Below are positions 2,919 through 3,970 of a stretch of DNA of 64,000 bases, piece by piece (position 1 is the first letter of the stretch; every line of letters starts with the position of its first letter). A model generated the notes under the pieces. It was not told the origin of the DNA. It searched no databases and was given only the letters and a program-made list of their open reading frames with translations. Source of the DNA: an uncultured Gammaproteobacteria bacterium (lineage in GTDB: Bacteria; Pseudomonadota; Gammaproteobacteria; Nitrosococcales; Methylophagaceae); the NCBI GenBank assembly GCA_905181885.1, contig CAJIZI010000003.1:124001-188000 (forward strand), given 5' to 3'. Position numbers and translations under genes: made by a program.

Positions 2919-3224
2919 TTAACTATAAGACGGCTTAGCCCTTATATGCCATATGACTCGACCTTGAATGTGGCTTAAGGGTTGTAAACCTAAGGACTGT
3001 GTGGATGTGGATTGCTGAAGGTTGTCACCAACCAGCCTCACACTTTTTTGTTCAATACTTAGAATTCGTTTAAGGATCTTACCTAGCGAGGGATGTTGAA
3101 CGATAACTACGTCATTTATTCTGTAGTGTGTGTTATAACAAGAAAAGCTCACTACGAAGTCATCATGTTTAAATACAGGGAGCATACTCTCTCCCTGTAT
3201 TTTATGGACACCCAAATGAAACAT
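2919..3224 (-). CDS. sodX: Nickel-type superoxide dismutase maturation protease
   Basis: A 101-residue S24/S26-type peptidase. The serine of GESMLPVF (Ser13) and the lysine in KILKRIL (about Lys52) form the expected Ser/Lys dyad. The protein is about the size of known SodX proteases, which remove the N-terminal propeptide of nickel SOD so that the histidine becomes the free N-terminal nickel ligand. It starts 8 bp after the sodN stop on the same strand, the classical sodN-sodX pairing. There is no membrane anchor, consistent with cytoplasmic maturation. Confidence 0.92.
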   Translation of the reverse strand: MFHLGVHKIQGESMLPVFKHDDFVVSFSCYNTHYRINDVVIVQHPSLGKILKRILSIEQKSVRLVGDNLQQSTSTQSLGLQPLSHIQGRVIWHIRAKPSYS

Positions 3225-3232
3225 TCAGACAA

Positions 3233-3730
3233 TTAGCCTAATTTGGGGTAAACAACTTGTTCTGACGGTGGGTAAGGGCATTCAGCTGTGAAAGTATCAA
3301 CACCTTTAGTTTTCCAAAACGCGTCAGCAAATTCATTGACTAGGGCTAATAGTTTTTCACCATTAGCACGATCAATAGTTGTTTTGCAGGCTGAGCCAGT
3401 AAGCATAATGCTATGCACTAATTCATTTGTATTCGGGTATTTTTCAAACTGTGGTTGTTTGAAATAGTCACCCCAGATAATACGAACTTCATCCTTTACT
3501 TTTGCAGCATGAGTTTCTTTCTCTGATACTAAACGACTTAATTTTGCTTGGTCGGCTAAAGATAAGGATGCACCGTCTAGCTCATTAATTAAATCTAAAA
3601 AACGAATAACACTTAATGCCGCTATTTGTGCGGTTGAAGGGTCATAAATTTTGCAGGGAATATCGCAGTGTGCAGCGGTGGTATCAAATCTCAAAAGAGA
3701 GTCTAATTGTGAAAAAATTGTATGTAACAT
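3233..3730 (-). CDS. sodN: Nickel superoxide dismutase precursor
   Basis: A 165-residue precursor. The nickel hook HCDIPCKIYDP begins at His21; cleavage before it would expose His, Cys and Cys as nickel ligands (motif H-C-x-x-P-C-x-x-Y). The 20-residue leader is a propeptide, not a signal peptide. The rest matches the family's four-helix bundle, including IIWGDYFKQPQFEKYP. The enzyme dismutates superoxide to oxygen and peroxide in the cytoplasm. It sits between a small His-rich gene and sodX in one apparent operon. The residue after the second Cys is Lys, where the Streptomyces enzyme has Gly. Confidence 0.96.
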   Translation of the reverse strand: MLHTIFSQLDSLLRFDTTAAHCDIPCKIYDPSTAQIAALSVIRFLDLINELDGASLSLADQAKLSRLVSEKETHAAKVKDEVRIIWGDYFKQPQFEKYPNTNELVHSIMLTGSACKTTIDRANGEKLLALVNEFADAFWKTKGVDTFTAECPYPPSEQVVYPKLG

Positions 3731-3760
3731 GATGGTTGTACCTCTATATTAATTATAGTC

Positions 3761-3970
3761 TTAAGAAGATATTTTCTTGCGGGCCAGATGTTTATTAACC
3801 GAGTAGGCTGCAACACCGACAAGTATTATAATGCCAAAAAAGGTCGCGCTATGTAGGGCGCTGCTAGACCAATGACTATGGTCATGACCGGAATGCGCTA
3901 GCGCTGACTGACTAAAAATAGTCGCGCTTGAAACTGCCAGCAGAGATAAAGAACGGATTTTCATATTCAT
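3761..3970 (-). CDS. Small secreted His-rich single-pass membrane protein leading the sodN operon
   Basis: A 69-residue protein with a signal peptide ending at about SALA. The predicted mature N-terminus is strikingly His-rich (HSGHDHSHW). A transmembrane helix (TFFGIIILVGVAAYSV) and a basic tail follow. The start is supported by an AAAGGA Shine-Dalgarno just upstream. It ends 30 bp before sodN on the same strand. The histidine cluster would face the periplasm and could bind nickel or another divalent metal, so a role in nickel capture for SodN is a reasonable but unproven inference. I do not recognise a named family. Confidence 0.7.
   Translation of the reverse strand: MNMKIRSLSLLAVSSATIFSQSALAHSGHDHSHWSSSALHSATFFGIIILVGVAAYSVNKHLARKKISS

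Follow-up and report, generated by a model that had tools for sequence, protein, structure and literature searches.

The window analysed here is a 64,000-nucleotide stretch of DNA belonging to a 1.5 Mb assembly (G000) of an uncultured gammaproteobacterium that is 99.73% complete. Three of its genes lie head to tail, a gene for a small membrane protein (here called small N-His) followed by sodN and sodX, separated by gaps of 30 nt and then 8 nt (Table 1). A preliminary description of this DNA had placed a 69-residue protein upstream of sodN and sodX on the same strand, with a signal peptide, the motif HSGHDHSHW, one helix, and a basic tail; the open reading frames were found where it had put them, and the layout of the protein agreed with hydropathy and an AlphaFold2 model. 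Within SodN, the pattern A20-H21-C22-D23-x-P25-C26 was invariant across 12 aligned sequences and spans HCDIPC, which we take to be the nickel hook. SodX lacks a membrane helix of its own and scored 50.1 bits against TIGR02754, under the cut-off of 63.25, and just above the cut-off of Peptidase_S24; its name is supported by the fact that an ORF of the same cluster accompanies sodN in 79 of the 80 listed loci described below. No Pfam or NCBIfam family matched small N-His above cut-off.

Table 1. Positions of the three genes and of their predicted parts within the window.
Feature	Position	Strand	Basis
Small N-His membrane protein, first gene of the trio	3761..3970	-	ORF, 69 aa
Predicted signal peptide, residues 1-25, ending ALA	3896..3970	-	Hydropathy and -3/-1 rule; AlphaFold2 helix 4-20
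HSGHDHSHW, residues 26-34, predicted mature N-terminus	3869..3895	-	Conservation in 51-sequence alignment
His40 (mature His15), start of membrane helix	3851..3853	-	His in 50/51
Predicted transmembrane segment, residues 37-55	3806..3862	-	Hydropathy; AlphaFold2 helix 36-68
Basic C-terminal tail, predicted cytoplasmic	3764..3805	-	K+R distribution in 51 sequences
sodN, nickel superoxide dismutase precursor, 165 aa	3233..3730	-	PF09055, E 2.3e-47; TIGR02753 above cut-off
HCDIPC of SodN, residues 21-26, presumed nickel hook	3653..3670	-	Exposed once leader is removed; alignment of 12 SodN
sodX, S26/S24-like SodN maturation peptidase, 101 aa	2919..3224	-	TIGR02754; ORF cluster

The window protein begins with a signal-like segment ending ALA|H and continues through the histidine motif into a single hydrophobic stretch (mean KD 1.89) and the basic tail, its predicted mature peptide being HSGHDHSHWSSSALH. 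In the AlphaFold2 model (mean pLDDT 83.8), the histidine cluster forms a loop between a helix at residues 4 to 20 and another at residues 36 to 68. Alignment of 51 such proteins (A2) gave the consensus H-P-G-H-D-H-x-H-W-x-S-x-x-I-H after predicted cleavage (AxA|H), followed by one helix and a K/R tail. Conservation was highest at mature positions His1 and His4 (51/51 each), Asp5 and His15 (50/51 each), and His6 (49/51), with Ser11 (46/51), Trp9 (45/51), and His8 (43/51) close behind. Mean pairwise identity reached 63% over mature residues 1 to 15, as compared to 22% for the helix and tail and 22% for the signal peptide, and the histidines are thus apparently under selection. A signal-like pattern ended directly before His1 in all 51 sequences, the placement of histidine at +1 being a prediction of the -3/-1 rule, and a strong hydrophobic stretch was present in 49 of them. 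Lysine and arginine averaged 4.9 residues after the helix versus none before it, and in none of the 51 proteins did positive charge before the helix exceed that after it. Small N-His would thus be an anchored peptide with its N terminus outside and its C terminus inside, carrying a predicted metal-binding N terminus.

The survey of sodN neighborhoods that the preliminary description had proposed was carried out on 80 loci from named records, listed from the 541 confirmed by a scan with a SodN alignment, and the neighboring ORFs were grouped by clustering. The recurrent members were sodN (80), sodX (79), small N-His (54), and a TPR/DUF2753-like gene (49). Small N-His stood directly upstream of sodN in these 54 of the 80 listed loci, at a median distance of 2 nt and within 50 nt in 53 of the 54, and took a divergent or fused form in three more (L088, divergent; L085, fusion; L038/L019, a small membrane protein lacking the His cluster). 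The usual order was TPR-like gene, small N-His, sodN, and sodX, with outer genes varying between loci. Since the gene precedes sodN this often and its motif is far better conserved than the rest of the protein, the association with sodN goes beyond chance. Consistent adjacency was also seen among 95 genomes of the tree neighborhood, where the seven clearest matches (at least 29 bits, window included) all lay directly 5′ of sodN, as judged for G031 via locus L066. Ten of 369 genomes sampled from the class carried sodN. In all seven of their sodN loci with a sodX-like neighbor a small ORF lay upstream, and in four it was canonical; two further loci, L023 and L025, carried sodN of another type, described below.

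The preliminary description's case for an accessory role depended on the protein not occurring mostly without sodN, and the counts favored it. Among the 369 gammaproteobacterial genomes, profile matches above 60 bits occurred in four, all of them sodN-positive, and the next match scored 37.6 bits (at most 16 candidates were scored per genome, and weak members may be missed). A further 49 genomes were drawn from the sodN loci; each of the 26 bearing the gene had one strong match beside sodN, while no match exceeded 32.2 bits in the 23 classed as lacking it. One of the 26 had a second copy (L210) away from sodN, with no nickel gene within 1.5 kb. No name or description of such a protein was found in the literature searched, which included few subscription journals. 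What had been put forward as a possible new accessory component is thus a real, conserved component of the NiSOD operon, undescribed within that literature.

Small N-His is not essential for every NiSOD, since 23 of the 80 listed loci contain no form of it, and its histidines are not indispensable, since L038/L019 retains a small membrane protein without the cluster. Several other arrangements were observed around sodN. The TPR/DUF2753-like gene encodes ~150 residues and mostly lies directly upstream in the loci that have it (e.g., L044:3307-3777; loci L031-L106); it is not beside sodN in the window and constitutes a second unstudied component of the NiSOD operon. In L029, L030, L033, L034, and L035, from which small N-His is absent, a protein of ~85 residues without a signal peptide (cluster c36) precedes sodN. 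Another type of sodN, found in a genome of the same genus (G013, L023:1414-1890) and in G359 (L025:1369-1893), has a signal peptide running straight into HCQVPCG or HCQIPCG and adjoins neither sodX nor the small protein; its product is probably a NiSOD that is exported and processed by the ordinary signal peptidase. Two sodN genes were found on MAAL01 contigs (L082 and L067; one genome, judging by the contig names), one with the full operon and the other with neither sodX nor the small protein nearby.

The fused form occurs in G728, an assembly from an uncultured member of the Pseudomonadales that contains L085, where a 225-residue frame joins the small protein in frame to SodN. It runs from a signal peptide through AHAGAEHVHF, a helix, and a basic stretch into ...KKASA HCDIPCKIYDP, with a SodN domain match of E 3.3e-44 and a sodX-like ORF behind it. 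The SodN hook follows the helix and is predicted to lie in the cytoplasm. Among 58 genomes around G728 only this one had the fused form; of the 12 with sodN, eight had a separate copy and three had none. The fusion is known from one metagenome-assembled contig only, and faulty assembly could have produced it.

Away from sodN, 21 weaker profile matches were listed in the class sample. Ten were either HupE-like permeases (several named by eye) or small N-His proteins adjoining nickel genes; the other 11 were unrelated or DUF6488-like, five being DUF6488-like. Small frames were followed from profile matches in the class sample, the genomes of the sodN loci, and a further search. Thirteen similar single-helix small N-His proteins adjoined urease or NiFe-hydrogenase genes, and one more copy, L210, did not. 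The neighbors were the hydrogenase large subunit (PF00374; L112, L114, L230, L259, and L261), hydrogenase protease (PF01750; L225), HypC and a HypB-type gene (L260), an AIRS-family gene identified by eye as hypE (L113), UreG-type genes (PF02492; L178 and L216), and UreD (PF01774; L124, L126, and L130). L118 lacks a helix and does not fit the set. Paraglaciecola marina (G737) carries two small N-His genes, one next to sodN and the other next to ureG. The closest Pfam family was DUF6732 (PF20506), matched at E≤1 by 35 of the 51 small N-His proteins (best 1.6e-6), the window protein scoring 9.7 bits against a cut-off of 27. In all seven strong loci (L133-L139), the DUF6732 gene precedes a CbiX cobaltochelatase gene, which suggests a cobalt-linked family of N-His membrane peptides; DUF6732 is unmentioned in the literature searched.

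To our knowledge, the route by which apo-NiSOD receives nickel is unsolved. The SOD search in G000 covered the Fe/Mn and nickel families but not SodC, and NiSOD was the sole SOD found, as no Fe/Mn-SOD match was obtained there with PF02777 in a search that found this family in 12 of 14 control genomes. Nor was Fe/Mn-SOD (PF02777) detected in G018, G031, or G032, all of which have sodN and the small protein. G000 also gave no match to HupE_UreJ, NicO, or CbiM, the importer search covering these three families and not NikABCDE, UreH/SodT, or CorA. With NiSOD the only SOD found and three permease families not detected, the small N-His gene makes nickel supply in G000 a testable question. Two papers describe cyanobacterial SodX and SodT, and the partners that they name for NiSOD are sodX and, for picocyanobacteria, sodT, a putative permease gene (PMC8346466, PMC4284471).

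Because small N-His adjoins sodN in many marine bacteria and similar proteins occur at other nickel enzymes, it probably helps bring nickel to SodN. The reading we favor, at a probability of roughly 0.6, is that it is a periplasmic nickel-binding membrane peptide serving nickel capture or delivery in SodN maturation. The protein would be exported by Sec, and cleavage following ALA would leave a short peptide fixed in the membrane by its one helix, with the N-terminal His cluster on the periplasmic side and the basic tail on the cytoplasmic side. The free N terminus together with His1, His4, Asp5, and His6, and with His15 at the membrane, would bind periplasmic Ni2+, so that nickel concentrated at the inner membrane could be loaded into new SodN cut by SodX. 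Small N-His would then do, as a peptide in its own right, what the metal-catching N terminus does in HupE/UreJ permeases. We infer each of these steps (export, cleavage, topology, nickel binding, and hand-over). The metal assignment of the preliminary description, which had rested on histidine content and gene neighborhood, now draws as well on the conservation of the histidines, the similar proteins beside urease and hydrogenase genes, and the single fusion to SodN.

The fusion is also compatible with a membrane platform, in which the basic tail would recruit the SodN precursor, soluble SodX, or both, and the periplasmic histidines would matter less. The G728 protein sets the SodN leader directly after the helix and tail, and SodX has no membrane helix. 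However, conservation is strong in the His motif and poor in the tail, and the similar small proteins of urease and hydrogenase loci occur where there is no SodX, making this a rather unlikely alternative to nickel capture.

A nickel-binding N terminus might instead belong to a subunit of a nickel importer, working in trans in the manner proposed for small subunits of the CbiN/NikN or CbtB type. The N terminus of small N-His has HupE-like geometry. When HupE, NicO, and CbiM were searched in the 49 genomes, no permease partner tracked the small N-His gene. HupE and NicO did not follow its presence (Fisher p 0.74 and 0.51, respectively), while strong CbiM matches were rarer with the gene (3/26) than without it (13/22; Fisher p 0.0007; fusion genome left out), as if one substituted for the other, a contrast confounded by descent, in that many genomes without the gene are Oceanospirillaceae or relatives. 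Pooling the three families, again uncorrected for descent, gave 10 of 26 genomes with the gene versus 14 of 22 without it (p 0.15). No permease gene recurred among the clustered neighbors of the 80 listed sodN loci, and we consider an importer subunit unlikely.

The main regulatory precedent is that of CutF-like peptides (PMC9973294), which, like small N-His as predicted here, are small exported peptides with a metal motif encoded upstream of a metalloenzyme gene. By analogy, export of the nascent metal-binding peptide would control sodN translation in cis, a reading favored by the place of a small Sec-type metal peptide directly upstream of a metalloenzyme gene. In contrast to the stem-loop over the downstream Shine-Dalgarno sequence and the Pro-rich C terminus that mark CutF-like members (PMC9973294), the sodN start showed no unusually stable structure (mean z +0.63; z < -2 in 0/54), and the last 20 residues of small N-His contained no proline in 47 of 54 cases. 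Such a mechanism would moreover be impossible for the G728 fusion of peptide and enzyme, and we regard it as quite improbable. Handling of another metal, or protection of SodN from mismetallation, in place of nickel supply is very improbable, for although the motif is not nickel-specific by sequence, His/Asp peptides can also bind Cu, Zn, or Co, and DUF6732 adjoins a cobalt chelatase gene, 13 of the 14 small relatives followed up adjoin nickel genes.

The nickel-capture reading can be extended, in a speculative form that we think possible but somewhat doubtful, to a dispersed guild of one-helix N-His peptides (“mini-HupE”), each for one nickel enzyme (NiSOD, NiFe hydrogenase, or urease) and perhaps one, DUF6732, for cobalt chelation. 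Such peptides would provide a membrane nickel-capture step replacing or preceding a full permease, and in the NiSOD case would even be joined covalently to the enzyme, with capture outside and hook loading inside on one molecule. Should other nickel enzymes be served by such peptides as well, a testable role would follow for a class of small proteins that lack annotation.

Among known systems, the N terminus of HupE/UreJ permeases (PF04955) offers a close likeness, with a signal peptide, a predicted mature N-terminal histidine, and a second histidine 14 residues on at the start of TM1. This spacing was 14 residues in 50 of 51 small N-His proteins and mostly 14 to 15 in the HupE examined, and both share an aromatic residue six positions before the membrane histidine and Ser, Ala, or Thr four before it. 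In contrast to the six or more helices of HupE, small N-His has one, and it lacks HX5DH and the second HupE motif; the window protein, at 69 residues, has no multi-helix core and gave no match to PF04955 (cut-off 23 bits) at E≤10. Six of the 51 relatives matched HupE weakly, below the Pfam cut-off (best E 0.011). Comparison by hhalign of mature segments with those of 12 HupE, seven of which had been picked through the small protein, gave a probability of 91.8 (E 7.4e-7; 0 of 200 shuffles as high), whereas against HupE collected solely with the Pfam model the score of 11.2 lacked significance, falling within the shuffles (up to 14.4). When the segments were anchored on the membrane histidine, 1.4% of permutations scored as well, and a slide of -4 slightly outscored the true register. 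Because the match from the biased sample was lost with Pfam-found HupE, likeness rather than membership is claimed; homology to the HupE N terminus is only suggested, and small N-His would work in the manner of that N terminus.

The stand-alone HupE-like small proteins, with no description in the literature searched, share with small N-His a frame of 57 to 99 residues, a signal peptide, an N-terminal histidine, one helix, a basic end, and nickel-gene neighbors, but several retain the DH of HX5DH, and their slot is at hydrogenase or urease. Three of them (L178, L225, and L261) exceeded the HupE_UreJ cut-off, over profile positions 2 to 51 of 179 only, the permease N terminus. DUF6732 proteins are likewise small, with a signal peptide, AHxGH...GHxHW, and one helix, and differ in motif spacing, an acidic tail, and the cobalt chelatase neighborhood. 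According to a 2025 paper (PMC12537917), proteins with histidine at the mature N terminus bind transition metals, DUF4198 binding nickel with a Kd of 18 nM, and N-terminal-His domains termed anglerases are found on HupE/UreJ-2. Ang-1, Ang-2, and DUF4198 resemble the predicted mature form of small N-His in using a histidine exposed by cleavage as a metal catcher and in their link to HupE/UreJ-2 or nickel genes, but they are folded domains (PMC12537917), whereas small N-His would present its histidines on a short peptide carried by one helix.
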